Source: Methylotenera sp. L2L1 (lineage in GTDB: Bacteria; Pseudomonadota; Gammaproteobacteria; Burkholderiales; Methylophilaceae). From it: a DNA stretch of 64,000 nt. This document shows, one piece after another, positions 52,406 through 60,996 of the stretch (the first letter of the stretch is position 1; each line of letters opens with the position of its first letter). Position numbers and translations under genes: made by a program. Below the pieces are notes generated by a model. It saw only the letters and a program-made list of their open reading frames with translations, was not told the origin of the DNA and made no database searches. Location: NCBI RefSeq assembly GCF_000744605.1, contig NZ_JQMG01000001.1, forward strand, positions 1,550,001-1,614,000. The letters are read 5' to 3'.

Positions 52406-53095
52406 GTGAGGGATTTCTTAAAGTATAGTTTATTAATGAGTACCATCTTTATATTTTGCAATACGCATGCTTATGCAGAGAGTGTTGAAGATGGGCGTGT
52501 TTGGCTTAATATTCTGGCAAATGGGGCAACAGGTATCGATAAGTTGCGCTGGTATATGGAGCTACAGCCACGGTGGCGTGAAGAGGGTTCGCGTTTAGAC
52601 CAAACATTATTACGTCCTGCAATTTATTATAAATTAACTGAGCAGAGTAGTCTGTGGGCAGGCTATGCCTATGTAGTAACAGACCCTTCAGGTAAATCTG
52701 CATTTGATGAGCATCGTGTATGGCAGCAATACCTATATCAGTTTGCACCTATTGACAATGTTTCGATACAAAGTCGCACGCGTTTGGAGCAGCGGTTTAT
52801 TGAAAACTCTGATGACACGGGGCATAAGTTAAGACAAATGTTTAGAGTTGTGACGCCATCTGGCGTTCATTTCAAATTGAGCTGGGTGTTTTACGATGAG
52901 TATTTTATCAATCTTAATAATACCGATTATGGTGCACAAAAAGGCTTCGATCAAAACCGTGCATTTTTAGGCGGAAATTGGGCGCTTTATCCAGATACGA
53001 AATTGGAGATAGGTTATTTAAATCAGTATGTTAAAACTAAACAAGCTGATCTTGTGAATCATGTACTTTCAACCACCCTCAATTTTTCATTTTAG
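52406..53095 (+). CDS. DUF2490-type outer-membrane barrel protein
   Basis: A 229-residue secreted protein with a signal peptide (residues 1-24, ending AYA) and alternating beta-strand pattern. DUF2490-like features are LRWYMELQPRWREEGSRLDQ, LRPAIYYKL, LWAGYAYV, RTRLEQRF and a terminal LNFSF with Phe. The protein is probably a small outer-membrane barrel; function unknown. The start GTG 52406 follows AAGGTGG. It lies 14 bp after the terminator of the PhoB-regulated porin, so read-through could couple it to phosphate starvation; no separate PhoB box is visible. Confidence 0.8.
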   Translation: MRDFLKYSLLMSTIFIFCNTHAYAESVEDGRVWLNILANGATGIDKLRWYMELQPRWREEGSRLDQTLLRPAIYYKLTEQSSLWAGYAYVVTDPSGKSAFDEHRVWQQYLYQFAPIDNVSIQSRTRLEQRFIENSDDTGHKLRQMFRVVTPSGVHFKLSWVFYDEYFINLNNTDYGAQKGFDQNRAFLGGNWALYPDTKLEIGYLNQYVKTKQADLVNHVLSTTLNFSF

Positions 53096-53625
53096 AACTT
53101 AACTGAACAAATCTATCTATATAGGCGGTCATTGATGCAGTAATAACCGCACTCTAATGCCTGTAACGCTTCAATTTAATAATAAGCGTTATCACTTCAA
53201 GCCGCTATTTTGTTAGTATTTAAGCTAGTACACGTTTTAACTAAATCACGCTTAACTGATAGTCGATACGGCTTAATAGTGTCTTGATTTATTAAATCCA
53301 TACTATACAAATACTTAGAGTAATCATTTTCTCCATGCATCGTGCCAAACATCACTATATTTTTGGCATCAAATCTACCGCCATTTATCATTATTTCGCA
53401 CCAGTTTGTACAATTTACGCACTGTAAAAGTGCGTACTTCGAATTTATTATGCTTAATTCATATTGAAAATCAGTAGCTTATTACTGTTTTTTTCAGCAT
53501 TGACGCCACCTGTAGCCTGGTTTTTAAAAGTTGGAATGAGAATTGCTATTTATTCATGTAAGTAATCCTGTTTTGTATTGAATGAGTCTGATTGGACTCA
53601 GTTTGATGGTAGCGAGGAGTGCATC
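53096..53625. other. Long intergenic region without a clear gene
   Basis: Contains a GCGGT...ACCGC imperfect hairpin (53126-53151) and an 8-bp perfect stem TACGCACT/AGTGCGTA (53416-53436). A 64-codon minus-strand frame (53197-53391) has no ribosome binding site that I can see and no recognisable domain. A GAGGAG at 53614-53619 belongs to the next gene. Confidence 0.4.
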
Positions 53626-54597
53626 ATGAATAAGCGTATTTCAGCATTATTATGTACTGTATTAGTTCATTTGTTTTTTACAGGCATCGCATCTGCATCA
53701 CCGTCGTATGAGATGGTGAGTAAACTCAACGCACAAGTGTTGCGCGTGCAGGTTAAACACAATAATGGTAGCAACGGTTTAGGATCGGCGGTAGTGATTG
53801 CTAAAGACCAAGTAGTCACAAATTGCCATGTAGTGACTGATGCTCATGATGTTGAAGTCATCGTGAATGGTGTTGCACATGTTGCTACTGAAGTTAAGCC
53901 GGATTGGCATCATGATCTATGTATTTTGACAGTCTCAGACTTGGATGCACCTGTTGCAAAAATTGGTGCTAGCAAGAATCTTAAATATGAAACTCCAGTA
54001 TTTACCATTGGCTATCCTGATAAAACAACTGAGCCAGTCAATACTTTTGGTGTTGTTAAGGGTATGTTCCCGATGGATGATAGTGTCGTGATTCGTGCTA
54101 CCAGTCCGTTTAGATTAGGTGCCAGTGGCGGTGGTGTATTTGATGATGCGGGTACTTTGGTTGGTATCATTACTTTAAAAAGCCGTGGTAACAATGCACA
54201 TTATTACTACATGCCAGTTGAGTGGGTGCAAGCGTTGATGAATAAACCTGCTCAGAGTTTGGGCGCTAAAAGTGAAAAGCCTTTTTGGGCAGTAAGCGAT
54301 CATCAACGGCCTTATTTTATGCAAGTAGTTCAGCCTTATGTCTCACATGATTGGAAGTCATTGCTATCTGTTTCTAGTGAATGGGTAAATGCTGAACCTG
54401 ATACTGCTGAGTCATGGTTTTATCTAGCAATGGCTGAGTACGAAACTAAGGCTTACGATAAGGCGGAGGCGCATTTTAATAAAGTGCTGGCACTTAACGA
54501 TGACCATCGCCAAGCCGTTGAGTATTTAAATAAAATAAACGAAAGAACTGCTAGTGCCAAGACTGCGCTTAATCAACTGGCGTTGCTAGCTGATTAG
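53626..54597 (+). CDS. Secreted trypsin-like serine protease with C-terminal TPR
   Basis: A 323-residue protein with a signal peptide (residues 1 to about 24, ending ASA). The protease domain shows the triad: His in VTNCHVVT (about residue 65), Asp in WHHDLCIL (about 98) and Ser in GASGGGVF (about 165). A TPR-like helix pair follows near 245-310 (AESWFYLAMAEYETKAYDKA and HRQAVEYLNK). PDZ domains are absent, unlike DegP. ATG 53626 is preferred because of GAGGAG upstream; the ATG-less extension to 53578 is rejected. The stop lies 30 bp from the convergent response regulator. Likely a periplasmic protease; substrate unknown. Confidence 0.85.
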   Translation: MNKRISALLCTVLVHLFFTGIASASPSYEMVSKLNAQVLRVQVKHNNGSNGLGSAVVIAKDQVVTNCHVVTDAHDVEVIVNGVAHVATEVKPDWHHDLCILTVSDLDAPVAKIGASKNLKYETPVFTIGYPDKTTEPVNTFGVVKGMFPMDDSVVIRATSPFRLGASGGGVFDDAGTLVGIITLKSRGNNAHYYYMPVEWVQALMNKPAQSLGAKSEKPFWAVSDHQRPYFMQVVQPYVSHDWKSLLSVSSEWVNAEPDTAESWFYLAMAEYETKAYDKAEAHFNKVLALNDDHRQAVEYLNKINERTASAKTALNQLALLAD

Positions 54598-54627: not shown

Positions 54628-55095
54628 CTACTCAGAGGTTTTCGGTAGATGTACTGCCGGCTTGATTTCAGCGTTAAGTGATTTTAAGTGACGGTACAAG
54701 ATACGTGTTTCTAGTAGGTTCCACACACGTAGCATTGCTTCAATCGTATCAAATGGTTTGGTAAGAAAGTCTTTGGCACCTAGTGCCAGAGCTTTTCTTT
54801 TAGCACCAATGGTGGCATCTGCTGTGAGTACTAACACTGGTAAGTATTCATCTTTAGGGATGTGCCGTGATAGCATTTCTAACACTGCATAACCATCCAG
54901 TTCTGGCATCATTAAATCAAGCAAAATTAAATCAGGTTCAAAAGCTTTATATAGATCTAAAGCGCGCGTAGAGTCTGCAGTACTGATGACTTGGTGAAAG
55001 CCTTCTCTTGTTAACAGATCCTCTAATAGTTTTAAATTAGCTTCTGCATCATCTACAATTAAAATCTTGGCATTTAATATATCAGCCTCGTTCAT
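54628..55095 (-). CDS. Stand-alone receiver-domain response regulator
   Basis: A 155-residue protein with one REC domain (residues about 10-125): acidic pair in LIVDDAEAN, phosphoacceptor Asp in LILLDLMMPELDG (Asp near 57) and Lys in FLTKPF. The C-terminal 30 residues carry no DNA-binding or enzymatic domain. Its ATG overlaps the end of the histidine kinase gene by 4 bp (ATGA), so it belongs to the LuxR-kinase-receiver operon and is the probable phosphate acceptor or relay for the kinase. Confidence 0.93.
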   Translation of the reverse strand: MNEADILNAKILIVDDAEANLKLLEDLLTREGFHQVISTADSTRALDLYKAFEPDLILLDLMMPELDGYAVLEMLSRHIPKDEYLPVLVLTADATIGAKRKALALGAKDFLTKPFDTIEAMLRVWNLLETRILYRHLKSLNAEIKPAVHLPKTSE

Positions 55096-57074
55096 TTTAT
55101 TTCCTGACTTTGGATTAATTCTCTTACTTGTTTATTAAACAAAGCAACATCAAGTGGTTTAGTCATGTAGTACGCCACACCTGCGGCTTGTAAACGGTCT
55201 ATTGTGTCTGGTAATGCATCAGCGCTTAAGATCATCATCGGGATGTCTCTTAAGTAAGGTTCAGACATTACATAGTGCACTAGGCTCTCTCCTGATCCAT
55301 CAGGCAGATTTAAATCAATCAATAGTAGCGACGGCTGCAACTCGCTTAAATATTGTTTAGCATCTTTTATTGTGGATACGCAATGAATGCGTAAATCTCG
55401 TTGGCGTAGAATGATCGCTTCAACTAGCGCGCGATTACTTATATTGTCTTCTACATAAAGAATCGAGTGTTTGTTGGCTAGGTTAAGCTGTTTTGTATTT
55501 TCTGTTTGTTGGGACAGTTCATTAGGTGCTGTATTAGCATCGCATGCTGCAATCTCTACCCAAAATAAACTTTTATCATTTGCAAGGTGAATGCTCCCAT
55601 GCATGGCCAGCATGATTTGTTTGGATAGTGCCAAACCTAGGCCCGTGCCTTCCACTTTAGTATTTTCAGCACCTAGTCTGTCAAAAGGCGTAAATACTCT
55701 TTCTCTTAATGCGCTTGGGATGCCTGCACCATCATCTTGTACTTCAATAATAATGTGATTATCACGACGATAAGCATTTAATTGAATAACAGAGCTGACG
55801 GGGCCATATTTAAGGGCATTGGAAAGTAAGTTTAATACGACTTGTAGTAATTTCTGCTGGTTGGCCATGGCCCATAGGTTTGGCGCAATCTCACATTTAA
55901 TTTCTATATCCCTTATTTTACCTATTGGTGCAATGTAGTGGCTTGCTTCTTCTAACAAGCTATTAATCAGCGTAGGCGCTAACTCTAATGAAACCTCACC
56001 AGATTCAATTCTTGCAATTTCGAGTACCTCGTTAATTAACTTGAGCAAATGTTGACCTGCGCCTTTAATGAGCGAAACACTATCGCGTTGTTTTCCTGGC
56101 GATAAATCTTGCTCCAATAACTGAGCAAATCCTAAAATAGCATTGAGTGGCGTTCTAAGTTCATGGCTGGTTCTAGATAGAAACATACTTTTTGAGGTAC
56201 TGGCTTCCTCAGCCTCTTGCCTTGCTTGTATGGCATCGCTGATGTTTTTAGCTAGTAATTGTGAAGCATGATCTAGCTCGTCGGAAAGTTGCCCCAACTC
56301 ATCTCGGCTACTGGAAGGTAAGTCGAGTGCTTCTGCGCGGGCCAAGTGTCCAGCACTGTCTCGCAGTAAGCGCACACGTTTGACGATGGTGCGTGAGAAT
56401 ATCCAAACCGCTACTAGTGAACCTATGATGCCTGCAATCGTGGCAATTAGCGTGGTGGAAATGCTTTGCTGACGTTGCAGAAAGATTTCTTGTTGATCTT
56501 GCTCTACAAGTAAGGCTTCTTCTGCGTTGAGTGCTTCAATTTCTTTTCTAAGCTTATCCAGTGTGTCAACTTGTGATTTAAATTGTGTAATTAAACTATC
56601 GGATACAATTTCTGAGTCGTGATTTGAAAGTGATTTTAGATCTGCTAGGTTCTTGGCAACTAACGGCACAATCACTGATAAACGGTGTTTTTGTTGATTA
56701 CTTTCTAAGCGATTCTCTAATGTGTCGATAATCTCCGGCAGTATTCTCTCTGCCTCAAAAAAAATGTTTAGAAAGTGTTTATCTCCTGTGAGTAAGTAGT
56801 CTCTTACGCCAGTGGAGGCTTCTAAAAGTTGGGAGTGTACAGTTTGAATATCGCGTTGATTTTGTAAGGCATGCTTCAGTTTGTTTTCTAGCATGGTTGA
56901 CTCTAGCTCACGTATATAGAGTGAAGCCAAAGACGCCAACAAGACTGCTAAAGGCAGTGCAATCACAAACACTCCTTTAAAGCCAAGCGGTAAATCTTGC
57001 CAGGCTTGCGCCGCCCAGTGTAGGGGCTGCACGGTTTTTATTTTTTTGGGTGTGGCTTGCTTATTCATCATCAA
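55092..57074 (-). CDS. CHASE3 hybrid histidine kinase
   Basis: A 660-residue membrane sensor. TM1 is about residues 33-52; the periplasmic region with STGVRDYLLTGD (87-98) is CHASE3-like; TM2 is about 206-227; HAMP follows to about 285. HisKA carries SHELRTPL (303-310, phosphoacceptor His304). The ATPase domain has NLLSNALKYG (415-424), DDGAGIP and GTGLGLALSK. The C-terminal REC domain has VEDN (541-544), LLIDLNLPDG (Asp587) and TKPL (638-641). The ligand sensed cannot be predicted. It is the middle gene of the operon LuxR regulator, kinase, receiver. Confidence 0.95.
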   Translation of the reverse strand: MMMNKQATPKKIKTVQPLHWAAQAWQDLPLGFKGVFVIALPLAVLLASLASLYIRELESTMLENKLKHALQNQRDIQTVHSQLLEASTGVRDYLLTGDKHFLNIFFEAERILPEIIDTLENRLESNQQKHRLSVIVPLVAKNLADLKSLSNHDSEIVSDSLITQFKSQVDTLDKLRKEIEALNAEEALLVEQDQQEIFLQRQQSISTTLIATIAGIIGSLVAVWIFSRTIVKRVRLLRDSAGHLARAEALDLPSSSRDELGQLSDELDHASQLLAKNISDAIQARQEAEEASTSKSMFLSRTSHELRTPLNAILGFAQLLEQDLSPGKQRDSVSLIKGAGQHLLKLINEVLEIARIESGEVSLELAPTLINSLLEEASHYIAPIGKIRDIEIKCEIAPNLWAMANQQKLLQVVLNLLSNALKYGPVSSVIQLNAYRRDNHIIIEVQDDGAGIPSALRERVFTPFDRLGAENTKVEGTGLGLALSKQIMLAMHGSIHLANDKSLFWVEIAACDANTAPNELSQQTENTKQLNLANKHSILYVEDNISNRALVEAIILRQRDLRIHCVSTIKDAKQYLSELQPSLLLIDLNLPDGSGESLVHYVMSEPYLRDIPMMILSADALPDTIDRLQAAGVAYYMTKPLDVALFNKQVRELIQSQEIK

Positions 57075-57122
57075 AGTTATTATGCGCTTTAAGATTGATA
57101 GTCTATCAAGAATTGTAACTTA

Positions 57123-57884
57123 TTAAGACTTATAACCCAGTTCAACCGCTTTAACAGCTGCTTGGGTCCTATCTTTTACACCAAGCTTATTTAAAACCCG
57201 TTCTACATGTATTTTAGCTGTGCCAGACGCAATGCCAAGTTTGATGCCTAACTCATTGTTGCTTAATCCAGCAGGCAGTAATGCAAATATCTCCCGCTCT
57301 CGCGGAGTTAGTTTTTCTAATATTGACAAATCTGCCTCACTGCGTGCTGGGCCTTGGTGCTGTGAAATGGCTAGTGCAATGAGCCCTGAGATTGCATGTA
57401 AGGCTTCTAATTCAGCTTGTTTTAACACCAGTTTCTTACCTGATAGTGCTATCACCCCTTTACCATGCTGACCTAGTGCAATTGGGATTAAACACTCATG
57501 ATGCTGTAAATCTGCATGTGTCCATAATTGTGTATTTTTATTTTCATGCACAGCAAATTGAACTGGATTCTTTAACATCATTGCTAATATTCCCATCATT
57601 GGAACTCTCGCACCTACCGGTAGCGTTTGTCCAATTTGGGTATATATCACCAATTTACCCGAACTCTCGATGGCTAATACTGCATGTTGCGCTGAGAGTA
57701 AGTTACATAGTGAGTGCAGCAGGTTATTTGCTGCGTTTACACTCCATCCATAAGTAAATAATTGCTGACCAAAGTTAAGGTATAGCCGCAAGTGCGTGTC
57801 GTTTGCTTGCGTTTCCTTCAGACTTTGTCTAAGCGCACGGGCGCTGCTGGGCTGATTTAAGTTTTCGTGTAGGTCACTTGGCAT
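57123..57884 (-). CDS. GAF-LuxR transcriptional regulator
   Basis: A protein of about 253 residues. The C-terminal LuxR-type helix-turn-helix is clear: LTPREREIFALLPAGLSNNE and GIASGTAKIHVERVLNKLGV (about residues 190-240). The N-terminal about 170 residues look like a GAF-type sensory domain (HSLCNLLSAQHAVLAIE, LIPIALGQHGKGVIALSG) and show no acyl-homoserine-lactone-binding signature. ATG 57884 is preferred; a GTG at 57902 would add 6 residues and place the start inside the 20-bp dyad. It is the first gene of the operon with the kinase and receiver genes and is divergent from the small secreted pair. Confidence 0.88.
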   Translation of the reverse strand: MPSDLHENLNQPSSARALRQSLKETQANDTHLRLYLNFGQQLFTYGWSVNAANNLLHSLCNLLSAQHAVLAIESSGKLVIYTQIGQTLPVGARVPMMGILAMMLKNPVQFAVHENKNTQLWTHADLQHHECLIPIALGQHGKGVIALSGKKLVLKQAELEALHAISGLIALAISQHQGPARSEADLSILEKLTPREREIFALLPAGLSNNELGIKLGIASGTAKIHVERVLNKLGVKDRTQAAVKAVELGYKS

Positions 57885-57900
57885 ATGCCGTTTAGTATAC

Positions 57901-57920
57901 ACCGTTATACCTATAACGGT
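57901..57920. promoter_or_regulatory. Perfect lux-box-like dyad
   Basis: ACCGTTATA and TATAACGGT are separated by two bases (CC), a 20-bp dyad opening ACC and closing GGT as in LuxR-type operators. It lies 17 bp before the GAF-LuxR start and about 98 bp before the first small secreted gene. CATAAT at 57946-57951 would place a plus-strand start about 45 bp from the dyad centre, a usual activation geometry. Confidence 0.65.
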
Positions 57921-58017
57921 AGATTTTTCGTTGACTAGAACCCTTCATAATGCACTCCATCAACAAAGCAATTAAAAGAACTTAAACAAAGGTAGCGTAG
58001 TACTCTAGGAGAAAAAA

Positions 58018-58287
58018 ATGAAAGCTTTAAATTTAGTAGCAGTTGTTTCTTCAGCACTTTTATTAGTGGCAGGTGCAGCACATGCTGATGAAACTTTTAA
58101 AAATAACACGCACAACCACAACTTTATGGCTAAAAGACCATATCAGCAAGTGGTCACTAATAGTGAACAGAAAAAAGATCAACAATGGGAGGGTGCCACA
58201 TTGATCGATGATGAAATGAAGGGTGATGTGGGTTCAAAGAACCGTAACACAATGCGCTTAAATATGTTGAGTAAACGTGCATACTAA
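58018..58287 (+). CDS. Small secreted KRPY-motif protein 1
   Basis: An 89-residue precursor with a classical signal peptide (residues 1-23, ending AAHA); the mature part of about 66 residues begins DETF, is highly polar, has no cysteine and no membrane segment. Its features are KRPYQQV (about 39-45), WEGATLIDDE and a terminal MRLNMLSKRAY. The same blocks occur in the next gene, so the two are paralogues. I do not recognise the family. AGGAGA precedes ATG 58018. It is divergent from the GAF-LuxR operon with a lux-box-like dyad between, which suggests that regulator controls it. Confidence 0.85.
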   Translation: MKALNLVAVVSSALLLVAGAAHADETFKNNTHNHNFMAKRPYQQVVTNSEQKKDQQWEGATLIDDEMKGDVGSKNRNTMRLNMLSKRAY

Positions 58288-58330
58288 AAATAGTATCACT
58301 GAATAAATAAACAATAAATTGGAGAATGTC

Positions 58331-58603
58331 ATGAAAACAAAAAATTTAATCACACTACTGTCAACAGCAGTTTTGTTGGTAGCAGGCTCAGCTTCTGCTG
58401 ATGAGGATTACACTCATATTAACAAACAGAATTTGTCTAAACGTCCATATCAGCAAGTACCAGTAGCTACAGACTACAATAAAAAAGATGGCTTTGAAGG
58501 TGCAACATTGATTAATGAAAATGTTGAGGCTGAGGGAAAGCATAAGCAAATGCGTTTGAATATGCTAGGTAAACGCCCATATCTAGAGAAAAACACGGAT
58601 TAA
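58331..58603 (+). CDS. Small secreted KRPY-motif protein 2
   Basis: A 90-residue precursor, signal peptide ending GSASA, mature part beginning DEDY. The conserved blocks are KRPYQQV, FEGATLINE and MRLNMLGKRPY, in the same order and spacing as in the gene 44 bp upstream; the product has a 6-residue tail after KRPY. ATG 58331 follows TTGGAG. No cysteine or known domain. The pair ends in a strong terminator, so it forms its own transcription unit. Function unknown; a secreted or periplasmic polar peptide under signalling control is the reasonable inference. Confidence 0.85.
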   Translation: MKTKNLITLLSTAVLLVAGSASADEDYTHINKQNLSKRPYQQVPVATDYNKKDGFEGATLINENVEAEGKHKQMRLNMLGKRPYLEKNTD

Positions 58604-58637: not shown

Positions 58638-58668
58638 GCCCTGCCTTTCTTTGAGAGGCAGGGCTTTT
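58638..58668 (+). terminator. Terminator after the small secreted pair
   Basis: GCCCTGCCT/AGGCAGGGC, a perfect 9-bp stem with a 9-nt loop, followed by TTTT. Confidence 0.9.
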
Positions 58669-58761: not shown

Positions 58762-60306
58762 ATGGATTTATTTAAAGAGTTTAAAAGCGACTTTCCAGCA
58801 AGTATAGTGGTGTTTTTTGTTGCGTTGCCATTATGCTTAGGTATTGCCCTTGCTTCTGGCGCCCCTTTGTTTTCTGGTGTGATTGCCGGTATCGTTGGTG
58901 GTATTGTGGTGGGTATGTTTAGCGGGTCTCAGCTTGGTGTAAGTGGCCCTGCCGCAGGGTTGGCTGTTATCGTGCTGACTGCAATTGGAACATTAGGTTC
59001 TTTTGAGGCGTTCTTATTGTCTGTGATGGTGGCAGGGGTGATTCAGTTCTTACTGGGTTATTTCAAAGCTGGCTTCATTGCATATTTTGTACCGTCATCT
59101 GTGATTAAGGGGATGTTAACGGGTATTGGCTTGTTGATTGTGCTGAAACAGATACCGCATGCATTAGGTTATGATTTTGATTACCAAGGTAGTGAGTCCT
59201 TTGAACAGGCTGACGGTAGTAATACGTTTAGTGCCTTGGCTGATGCGTGGAATTTATTAACGCCAGGTGCGTTATTAATTGCCGCTGTTTCTATGGTCAT
59301 CCTAATTTTATGGGATACAACGCTATCAAAGAAACATCGTTTATTTCAGTTACTGCAAGGGCCTATTGTTGTGGTGCTTGTTGGTATCTTATTAAACTAT
59401 CTATTTCAAACGGGTATCCTAAGTTTTTCATTAGCCGACAATCAGATTGTTCAGTTACCTGTTGCGAATAATCTTGGTGAGTTTGTTGGACAGTTTACAA
59501 CACCTGATTTTTCACAAATTACTAATATCGAAATTTATAAAGTTGGTTTAGTGATGGCGATTGTGGCAAGTTTAGAAACACTTTTATGTGTGGAAGCCAC
59601 TGATAAACTAGACCCGGTAAAACGTATTACACCAACAAATAAAGAGCTTAAAGCACAAGGGATTGGTAATGTGTTGTCAGGCTTGGTTGGTGGTTTGCCT
59701 ATTACACAAGTGATTGTACGTAGCTCTGCAAATATCACTTTTGGTGCTAAAAGCAAGTTATCAGCAATTTTGCACGGTATTTGGTTGTTATTAAGTGCAG
59801 TCACGATTGCAGGTCTGTTGAATATGATTCCTTTAGCTAGTTTGGCTGCCATATTGATTATGGTGGGTTATAAGTTAGCTAAGCCATCATTGTTTGCCCA
59901 TATGTTTAAATTAGGTTGGGAGCAGTTTGCGCCATTTATCGCAACAGTGGCAGCTATTTTGCTAACAGATTTGTTGACAGGCATTGCCATTGGTTTGGTG
60001 GTTGGTGTCTTCTATACCTTGCATCATAGTTACCGTAACTCTCACTATCTGAAAGAAAGCACCACAACTGAGGATGGTCGTGAGGTTCACCATATTGTAT
60101 TAGCTGAAGAGGTTTCATTCTTTAATAAGGCGAGCATTTTGCAAGTGTTAGAGGCGATACCTAAAAATGCAAAAGTGATTATCGATTGCTCTAATTGTAA
60201 GTCGATTGCGTATGATGTCGTAGAATTCATCCGTGACTATCCACTGCATGCCAAATTGAAAAATATTGAAGTAGAAACTATCAAATTTATTCAACCTAAA
60301 TATTAA
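58762..60306 (+). CDS. SulP-family inorganic anion transporter (BicA-like)
   Basis: A 514-residue transporter with about 12-14 helices and a C-terminal STAS domain (about residues 430-510; FFNKASILQVLEAIPKN, VIIDCSNCKSIAYDVVEF). The SulP core has PLCLGIALASGAP, SGSQLGVSGPAAGLAVIV and ATDKLDPVKRITPTNKELKAQG (quoted in part: KLDPVKRITPTN). The downstream beta-carbonic anhydrase, 45 bp away, suggests bicarbonate as substrate, as for BicA; sulfate or another anion cannot be excluded by sequence. AAAGGAAT precedes ATG 58762. Confidence 0.88.
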   Translation: MDLFKEFKSDFPASIVVFFVALPLCLGIALASGAPLFSGVIAGIVGGIVVGMFSGSQLGVSGPAAGLAVIVLTAIGTLGSFEAFLLSVMVAGVIQFLLGYFKAGFIAYFVPSSVIKGMLTGIGLLIVLKQIPHALGYDFDYQGSESFEQADGSNTFSALADAWNLLTPGALLIAAVSMVILILWDTTLSKKHRLFQLLQGPIVVVLVGILLNYLFQTGILSFSLADNQIVQLPVANNLGEFVGQFTTPDFSQITNIEIYKVGLVMAIVASLETLLCVEATDKLDPVKRITPTNKELKAQGIGNVLSGLVGGLPITQVIVRSSANITFGAKSKLSAILHGIWLLLSAVTIAGLLNMIPLASLAAILIMVGYKLAKPSLFAHMFKLGWEQFAPFIATVAAILLTDLLTGIAIGLVVGVFYTLHHSYRNSHYLKESTTTEDGREVHHIVLAEEVSFFNKASILQVLEAIPKNAKVIIDCSNCKSIAYDVVEFIRDYPLHAKLKNIEVETIKFIQPKY

Positions 60307-60351: not shown

Positions 60352-60996
60352 ATGTATAAACACCCATTACTTAATCGCGACTTAATGTCACCAAAAGAAG
60401 CTTTAGATATTTTAGTGGAAGGTAATATTCGCTTTACGAATAACTATTCAGACGATAAAGATTTTCAGAGTTTGCTGAAAATTACTAAAGACAAGCAACA
60501 TCCTTTTGCCTCTTTTTTAAGTTGCAGTGACTCACGCGCACCAGTTGAGCTGCTATTTGACCAAGCACTTGGTGATATTTTCAGTGTACGTTTGGCAGGT
60601 AACATTGCTTCAGATAAAGCGATTGGTAGTTTAGAGTTTAGTTCTAAATACCTAGGAAGCAAATTGATTGTGGTGATGGGTCATAGCAGTTGCGGTGCTG
60701 TTAAAGCGGCATGCGATGATTTTAAAGATGGACATATCGGTGAAATTATCAACTTTATTAAACCATCTATTCGTCATGAAAAAACGGTGTTAAGTAAAGA
60801 AGACAGAACTTCTAAAAACCCGGATTTTGTTGAAAAGATTAATGTGCTGAATGTAAAGCATCAGATTGATACGATTATTCGCCAAAGTGATATCGTGAAT
60901 GACATGATTGAAGCGCGTCAAATTGCGATTATTGGTTCTGTTTATGATCTTGCCACAGGTAAAGTTAATTTCTTAGAAGACACGTATGTTGGCTAA
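60352..60996 (+). CDS. Beta-class carbonic anhydrase
   Basis: A 214-residue zinc enzyme interconverting CO2 and bicarbonate. Zinc ligands and catalytic residues are in SCSDSRAPVELLFDQ (Cys, Asp, Arg) and VVMGHSSCGAVKAA (His, Cys). RLAGNIASDKAIGSLEF is also conserved. It is co-oriented with the SulP transporter, which would deliver bicarbonate or receive it. In a methylotroph it may feed anaplerotic carboxylations and carbamoyl-phosphate synthase. AGGAAA lies ahead of the start. A bidirectional terminator follows. Confidence 0.95.
   Translation: MYKHPLLNRDLMSPKEALDILVEGNIRFTNNYSDDKDFQSLLKITKDKQHPFASFLSCSDSRAPVELLFDQALGDIFSVRLAGNIASDKAIGSLEFSSKYLGSKLIVVMGHSSCGAVKAACDDFKDGHIGEIINFIKPSIRHEKTVLSKEDRTSKNPDFVEKINVLNVKHQIDTIIRQSDIVNDMIEARQIAIIGSVYDLATGKVNFLEDTYVG

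Follow-up and report, generated by a model that had tools for sequence, protein, structure and literature searches.

The closest described systems to the locus studied here are of several kinds. LuxR quorum-sensing receptors are associated with the lux box, a 20-bp dyad with ACC/GGT ends upstream of the -35 element. EpsA (TIGR03020), of XrtB/PEP-CTERM loci, is a LuxR-type regulator with a GerE domain. Pairs of SulP and beta-carbonic anhydrase genes encode putative bicarbonate transporters, and the pentapeptide MXKDX repeat proteins (TIGR02953) are small secreted proteins. To our knowledge, CO2/bicarbonate sensing and the regulation of carbonic anhydrases are poorly known in heterotrophic proteobacteria. 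Here we analyze a stretch of 64,000 nucleotides from Methylotenera sp. L2L1 (contig NZ_JQMG01000001.1, positions 1,550,001 to 1,614,000), referred to as the window, in which a leftward operon encoding a GAF-LuxR regulator, a CHASE3 hybrid histidine kinase and a stand-alone receiver lies divergent from two genes for small secreted proteins. We call the latter KRPY proteins, after their repeated KR-P-Y-like motif.

Like the LuxR receptors, the regulator carries a GerE domain, and a 20-bp dyad with ACC/GGT ends lies just upstream of a weak -35. Unlike them, it has a GAF domain in place of the autoinducer-binding domain and its gene shares an operon with those of a hybrid kinase and a free receiver; moreover, the conserved box has over twice the length of a lux box. 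The lux-box-like appearance noted in the initial annotation therefore does not extend to quorum sensing, since the sensory half of the regulator is a GAF domain. Quorum sensing through acyl-homoserine lactones was rejected, as Pfam finds GerE and GAF and not PF03472, which we take to be the autoinducer-binding domain. The GAF_2 score is below the cut-off (23.2 against 28.6 bits); the predicted structure of this half matches GAF domains generally, the fold search naming no ligand. A Pfam scan of ten proteins at 50.8-61.0 kb revealed no linked LuxI synthase. EpsA is also of the LuxR type with a GerE domain, but the window regulator reaches only 46.1 bits against the TIGR03020 cut-off of 170.

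The window also contains a SulP gene followed by a beta-carbonic anhydrase gene, as in the known pairs, but here the two are tied to a dedicated sensor operon and to secreted KRPY proteins. Bacterial iota-carbonic anhydrases (BteCAi, in the available text of PMC7191908; COG4337 type, in that of PMC8425729) are comparable because a product like them is secreted beside the same kind of operon in other bacteria, with a related box and spacing. Unlike these enzymes, to which no sequence relation was detected, the KRPY proteins have no folded core in the predicted structure. They resemble MXKDX repeat proteins in being small and secreted, but assignment to that or another named family was rejected (KRPY A, 19.4 bits against a cut-off of 41). 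The initial annotation knew of no described system with this composition, and the literature we searched, where subscription journals were mostly absent, likewise gave no description of the operon, the box or the KRPY family. The available part of PMC3728764 held nothing on the module genes, and that of PMC8399692 mentions carbonic anhydrase genes of Methylophilus and not the module operon. Each component belongs to a known kind; what appears to be new is their combination and the family of secreted proteins.

The conserved unit and its predicted control site

Together, the operon and the small secreted proteins encoded divergently from it make up a conserved unit with a common, predicted DNA control site. 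We searched 187 Methylophilaceae genomes (G numbers below; L, C and g numbers are our handles for loci, contigs and genera) with a profile built from 11 KRPY proteins, counting matches at E ≤1e-4 and setting aside 23 further genomes with weaker best matches (E 0.003 to 1). KRPY genes were present in 43 genomes. A strong ortholog of the regulator (E <1e-40 with a regulator profile) was present in 42, the next-best genome reaching 1.8e-21 in the DNA-binding part only. Both occurred together in 42 genomes, KRPY alone in one, the regulator alone in none and neither in 144; as the genomes are not independent of each other, a Fisher test on these counts is descriptive only. The sole KRPY genome without the regulator (G137) is an 80%-complete metagenome-assembled genome in about 390 contigs. 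Each of the two lists spans seven genera (g1, g31, g39, g40, g41, g43 and g47).

Gene order was read in the 42 regulator loci. One to three tandem KRPY copies adjoin the sensor operon, directly divergent from the regulator in 38 loci; contigs end there in G140 and G194, and G101 and G136 carry their KRPY genes at another place. The kinase gene adjoins the regulator in all loci but that of G204, where this kinase type stands beside SulP on another contig. The initial annotation had proposed a dedicated sensor-to-secreted-product module. This is strongly supported by the 42/43 co-occurrence, by linkage conserved in seven genera and by the distant boxes described below. The refuting case named in the initial annotation, small genes widespread in genomes lacking the operon, did not materialise.

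The region between the divergent genes contains the dyad ACCGTTATACCTATAACGGT, exact over 20 bp at 57901-57920. This dyad is more than chance: of 41 intergenic regions taken from the family loci (that of G194, the 42nd, is truncated), 33 match a 21-bp pattern of the dyad with no more than 3 mismatches. The pattern is exact in 3 of the 41; the perfection reported in the initial annotation thus holds in the window and is special to a few species, while conservation extends over a longer box in which the dyad is embedded. Its consensus is TATGCCRTTNRGTATAYACC-N4-TACSTAT...GGTAGATTTTT, of which the dyad forms the right half. A 36-mer starting with AGTATA aligns without gaps in 41 family regions; these were found through the AGTATA anchor, whose own invariance is no evidence.

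We then scanned all 187 genomes with the 31-bp core of the box (57884-57914), allowing 3 mismatches. This gave 55 sites in 40 genomes, all of which carry KRPY and 39 of which carry the regulator, and the reversed pattern had no match in the 187 genomes. The regulator loci account for 39 sites. The 16 others, elsewhere in the genomes, are each followed on the same strand by a KRPY match or open reading frame 82-224 bp downstream, 15 being placed with the 11-protein profile and the one in G101 with a wider profile. Behind the distant boxes of G102 and G103 the KRPY E-values were 2.5e-4 and 8.7e-4, and 2.8e-18 and 5.5e-15 with the wider profile. A KRPY reading frame was re-detected behind all 13 distant boxes checked, namely those with flanks. 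As far as sequence can tell, the box is conserved in cis and in trans and marks KRPY genes whatever their location, which is the strongest single result. Because the distant boxes all precede KRPY genes, they are evidence in trans that the dedicated output of the regulator is the KRPY family.

A spacing of 24 nt between the box and the -10-like hexamer of the rightward promoter is the single best -10 position in 36/41 family loci, against 278/8200 shuffles, and is among the best in all 13 unlinked boxes checked. The -10-like TATACT of the leftward promoter lies inside the box, and therefore the operon probably regulates its own expression. It also bears on the start of the regulator, for which ATG at 57884-57882 is more likely than GTG at 57902, because the ATG is found in most relatives (36/41 by a loose match) and stands just past TATACT. 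With this start the dyad would be promoter and not coding sequence. The long GTG start was rejected as the likely one, as it overlaps both the box and the leftward -10.

With at most 1 mismatch, the 21-bp dyad pattern has one site in each of six genomes with the module and none in four without. A wider regulon in the genome of the window was considered and rejected: sites with 2-3 mismatches are scattered (one with 2 mismatches in G014) and were left uncounted, and at this level the pattern read backward gives as many sites or more in nearly all ten genomes.

Gene products of the locus

The features of the locus are collected in Table 1. Open reading frames and Pfam agree with the operon as initially annotated, including the 4-bp overlap of the kinase and receiver genes (55092-55095). 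A HAMP match in the kinase is below cut-off. With a HisKA/HATPase kinase and a receiver, the operon has the makings of a two-component system. The regulator has no receiver domain of its own, so it is not of the NarL/FixJ type, which combines receiver and GerE in one protein. In most family loci the receiver is the best conserved of the three operon proteins, with at least 67% identity to the closest of three reference receivers wherever it was recognised. The best named matches of the window's regulator (85-91%; L223, L224, L225 and L258) are all labelled Methylotenera.

Table 1. Features of the locus (positions in the window)
Feature	Position	Strand	Basis and remarks
Stand-alone receiver	54628..55095	-	PF00072, E 1e-26; last gene of the operon
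CHASE3-HisKA-HATPase-REC hybrid histidine kinase	55092..57074	-	PF05227, PF00512, PF02518 and PF00072 above cut-off
GAF-LuxR (GerE) regulator	57123..57884 (probable); GTG reading frame to 57902	-	PF00196, E 7e-15
Regulatory box, about 45 bp, TATGCCGTTTAGTATA..TACCTAT..CGGTAGATTTTT	57884..57928	+	contains the dyad
-10-like TATACT, leftward promoter, within the box	57894..57899	-	AGTATA in 41/41 aligned sites (found by that anchor)
-10-like CATAAT, rightward promoter	57946..57951	+	24 nt from GATTTT of the box
KRPY protein A	58018..58287	+	89 aa, secreted; mature 66 aa by inspection
KRPY protein B	58319..58603	+	94-aa reading frame; start probably internal ATG 58331
Terminator-like hairpin, 12 pairs, between KRPY genes and SulP	58638..58664	+	sequence scan
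SulP-family transporter, probable bicarbonate/anion importer	58762..60306	+	PF00916, E 4e-59
Beta-carbonic anhydrase	60352..60996	+	PF00484, E 5e-39

KRPY A and B are paralogues. In both, inspection shows a signal sequence of the Sec type, and no Pfam domain exceeds its cut-off, in agreement with the initial annotation. Mature KRPY proteins are hydrophilic and about 65 residues long. Among 76 distinct members, 63 contain the KR-P-Y-like motif at least twice, 69 an element of the [WFE]xG[ATS] type, and 75 have no cysteine past residue 25. The AlphaFold model of KRPY B (mean predicted local distance difference test score 64.5) is for the most part unfolded; apart from the signal sequence it has a single short helix, which precedes the last motif. 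The model is too uncertain for a fold search. KRPY does not have the appearance of an enzyme, and our best inference is that it serves as an accessory factor or scaffold in the periplasm. KRPY genes were not found by the profile search in loci outside Methylophilaceae, where a single match (L305, 6.6e-5) was discarded as it covers only the signal sequence.

The genome of the window encodes a third member of the KRPY family, in which the motif occurs once (FLGKRPYM). Its gene, near position 818,000 (L217:2528-2773), is flanked by an ammonium transporter gene on one side and an efflux outer-membrane gene on the other; similar genes occupy similar places in G014, G168 and G169. On the other side of the operon and convergent with it, a gene at 53578-54597 (+) encodes a trypsin-like secreted protease with TPR repeats, found beside the operon in 18/42 family loci; it is a possible processing enzyme of the KRPY proteins. 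Several family loci have a DUF2490 gene close to the module (52406-53095 in the window), and a related gene adjoins the iota-carbonic-anhydrase-like gene of Hydrocarboniphaga (L250:2438-3220) described below. In G204, the contig carrying the kinase (L222, G204:C79; 3.4 kb) has the kinase gene divergent from SulP, with neither regulator nor KRPY, while the regulator, receiver and KRPY genes share a different contig.

SulP, carbonic anhydrases and operons in other families

The initial annotation regarded the small-protein unit as self-contained. Our results differ, since the SulP and beta-carbonic anhydrase genes belong with it despite the intervening terminator-like hairpin. That reading had also missed the longer box, the probable start codon and the link to inorganic carbon as a whole, namely SulP, carbonic anhydrase, DabAB and, outside the family, iota-carbonic anhydrase. 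The SulP protein scores 200.8 bits with PF00916 (Pfam cut-off 23.2), and the beta-carbonic anhydrase is the only PF00484 protein found in the genome of the window (G000). Across the 187 genomes, SulP orthologs (E ≤1e-100) are present in 49; 40 of these have the regulator (out of 42 such genomes) and 9 lack it. SulP usually adjoins the module, along with the beta-carbonic anhydrase gene. It stands in line behind the regulator in 35/42 loci; the contig ends first in G139, G140 and G194, and the place is taken by DabA in G189, by a pqqA gene in G204 and by another gene in G143 and G150, the one in G143 having a weak PhoX match below cut-off.

DabA, a subunit of an inorganic-carbon transporter, adjoins the module in G016, G185 and G189; the DabAB-type genes lie in L045, L165 and L144, respectively, those of G189 at the usual place of SulP. 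In the window and in most relatives, the hairpin between the KRPY genes and SulP implies that any coupling there must be by read-through; in the near relatives G026, G169 and G180 no hairpin in this gap passes the scan. In G101 and G136, the box and its -10 stand directly before SulP, with no KRPY reading frame detected between them. This arrangement suggests that SulP and carbonic anhydrase can be a direct output.

To look outside the family, named genomes were scanned with an alignment of ten regulator sequences. Out of a longer list of matches, the best 80 loci comprise 29 from Methylophilaceae and 51 others, of which 17 match much of the regulator (L250-L257, L259, L261-L267 and L272) and 34 its DNA-binding part only. 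The hosts of the 17 are Hydrocarboniphaga, Perlucidibaca, Solimonas, Duganella, Massilia, Rugamonas, Marinobacter, Dyella, Alcanivorax, Xanthomonas and a Burkholderiales metagenome-assembled genome. Among these best 80, 16 of the 17 loci include an adjacent kinase of this type, and a secreted iota-carbonic-anhydrase-like gene lies by the operon in 16/17, against 2/34 of the loci matching in the DNA-binding part only. This gene is divergent in 15 loci, downstream in Marinobacter and absent in Alcanivorax. Both of the 2 control loci that have it are from Rhizobium and include a related kinase. None of the 34 has SulP or beta-carbonic anhydrase. A related kinase and a CaMKII_AD-type gene also occur near a LuxR-type regulator in L269 and L270 (Rhizobium) and in L272 (Xanthomonas), which suggests that the association reaches beyond the 16 loci studied first.

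The products of the 16 outside genes are, by sequence, iota-carbonic-anhydrase-like, their activity being putative. Five are of the type solved as iota-carbonic anhydrase, one by a match to the PDB and the others by similarity to it: the L251 protein matches the metal-independent iota-carbonic anhydrase entries 7c5v and 7c5x at 5e-67 and 2e-82, and scores 271.5 bits with the corresponding model NF047901, below its cut-off of 350. The other 11 are of the CaMKII_AD type by similarity. PF08332 was present in all four proteins of this type scanned (three of the eleven and one from G043), together with signal sequences recognised by inspection, and the L261 protein matches 3h51 at 3.5e-50 as well as TIGR02246 (SgcJ/EcaC). 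According to the available part of PMC7191908, most bacterial relatives of the Burkholderia territorii iota-carbonic anhydrase are annotated as SgcJ/EcaC.

A 16-mer resembling the box is found with at most 2 mismatches in 11 of 16 outside regions examined (those of the 17 loci without L272), several of the 16 being close relatives, against 3/1500 mononucleotide shuffles. Eight of these 11 regions have an AGATT anchor; in all eight the spacing of 24 to a -10-like hexamer is best, and in seven it is the sole best. The -10 spacing is common to the KRPY and the iota-carbonic-anhydrase-like genes. In Perlucidibaca and Solimonas an unknown secreted protein follows the iota-carbonic-anhydrase-like gene (L251:2772-3245 and L253:2620-3180), and the one scanned has no Pfam match.

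Proposed mechanism and alternatives

On balance, we favor the view that the locus is a dedicated signaling module for inorganic-carbon supply (CO2/HCO3-, or a linked change in pH), with KRPY as its output. Gene content, linkage, co-occurrence, conservation of the box and the promoter spacing common to KRPY and iota-carbonic-anhydrase-like genes are observed; from these we infer, as follows, which signal is sensed, how phosphate is passed on, whether the regulator activates or represses, and what KRPY does. The CHASE3 hybrid kinase would sense an extracytoplasmic or membrane signal and exchange phosphate with its own receiver and with the stand-alone receiver. The latter would in turn modulate the GAF-LuxR regulator; such a relay by the free receiver is suggested because the regulator is receiver-less and the free receiver is, in most loci, the best conserved protein of the operon. 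The regulator may bind the box of about 45 bp, activating the rightward promoter from just upstream of its weak -35 and probably restraining its own leftward promoter. In Methylophilaceae the output would be the small, secreted and for the most part disordered members of the KRPY family, with the SulP/beta-carbonic anhydrase pair for bicarbonate uptake co-expressed by read-through, or directly in some species. The KRPY proteins would probably be periplasmic accessory factors of this uptake. More tentatively, a CO2/bicarbonate-sensing phosphorelay may control extracytoplasmic carbon handling in several proteobacterial lineages, through a secreted iota-carbonic anhydrase elsewhere; KRPY might have taken its place in Methylophilaceae and assist SulP-type uptake or report to the kinase.

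Several observations weigh against a module for inorganic-carbon supply. A terminator-like hairpin with a T-run separates KRPY and SulP in 23 of the 33 gaps scanned. Nine SulP genomes are devoid of the regulator, five of them from g26 (proteins with 53-58% identity) and four being 48-88% complete, and G143 has the regulator and KRPY, yet no SulP and no PF00484 match. Beta-carbonic anhydrase is present in 54 of 55 chosen family genomes, with and without the module; being near-universal, it is less telling as a neighbor than SulP. The SulP protein itself scores far below the BicA equivalog cut-off (NF050096, 119.7 against 880 bits). As to the box, 3 of the 42 regulator genomes (G165, G185 and G194) have none within 3 mismatches, and some KRPY genes are boxless, such as the G000 gene by the ammonium transporter gene, which has no recognisable box. 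Outside the family, the 16-mer was loosened by one position after some of the outside sequences had been seen. Among 18 CaMKII_AD-type genes in 300 genomes of the order, the regulator is within about 1.5 kb of 3 (G043, G241 and G418), and therefore the enzyme does not need the regulator.

These points bear in part on an alternative that we judge unlikely, namely that the module answers envelope, pH or surface conditions generally, SulP and carbonic anhydrase being vertically kept neighbors outside its regulon. The hairpins before SulP fit such a scheme, as do the 16 distant boxes, which precede KRPY genes and never SulP or carbonic anhydrase, and the loci where another gene (G143, G150) or pqqA (G204) stands in the place of SulP. 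However, the presence or absence of SulP tracks the regulator over 187 genomes with few exceptions, and in other families the operon has a carbonic anhydrase of an unrelated class as its neighbor. The DabA gene adjoining KRPY in G189 and the box directly before SulP in G101 and G136 argue in the same direction. Simple chance, by which an ordinary two-component operon and ordinary periplasmic proteins came to lie side by side, would suit the common type of each part, but is highly improbable: the co-occurrence is without exception bar one incomplete genome, and boxes precede unlinked KRPY genes, which already contradicts it.

For the function of KRPY, the main rival sees these proteins as precursors of peptides that are secreted and sensed as signals by the CHASE3 kinase, in a Gram-negative autocrine circuit. 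In favor of it, they are small, secreted and mostly disordered by prediction, with repeated motifs, tandem copies adjoining a sensor kinase and a secreted trypsin-like protease gene beside the operon in 18/42 loci. The KRPY motif, however, varies little between species, whereas most pheromones do vary, and no dedicated exporter was seen at the locus. Moreover, the operons outside the family mostly have a carbonic-anhydrase-like gene instead, so the kinase can work without KRPY. We thus consider a peptide signal quite improbable.

A module for inorganic-carbon supply would provide a concrete candidate regulator of the CO2/bicarbonate response, with a DNA site and a gene set, in at least one cultured and named host, Methylophilus methylotrophus (L241). 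Iota-carbonic anhydrases would gain a candidate regulatory system, and a new family of secreted proteins, KRPY, a context in which its role can be tested.

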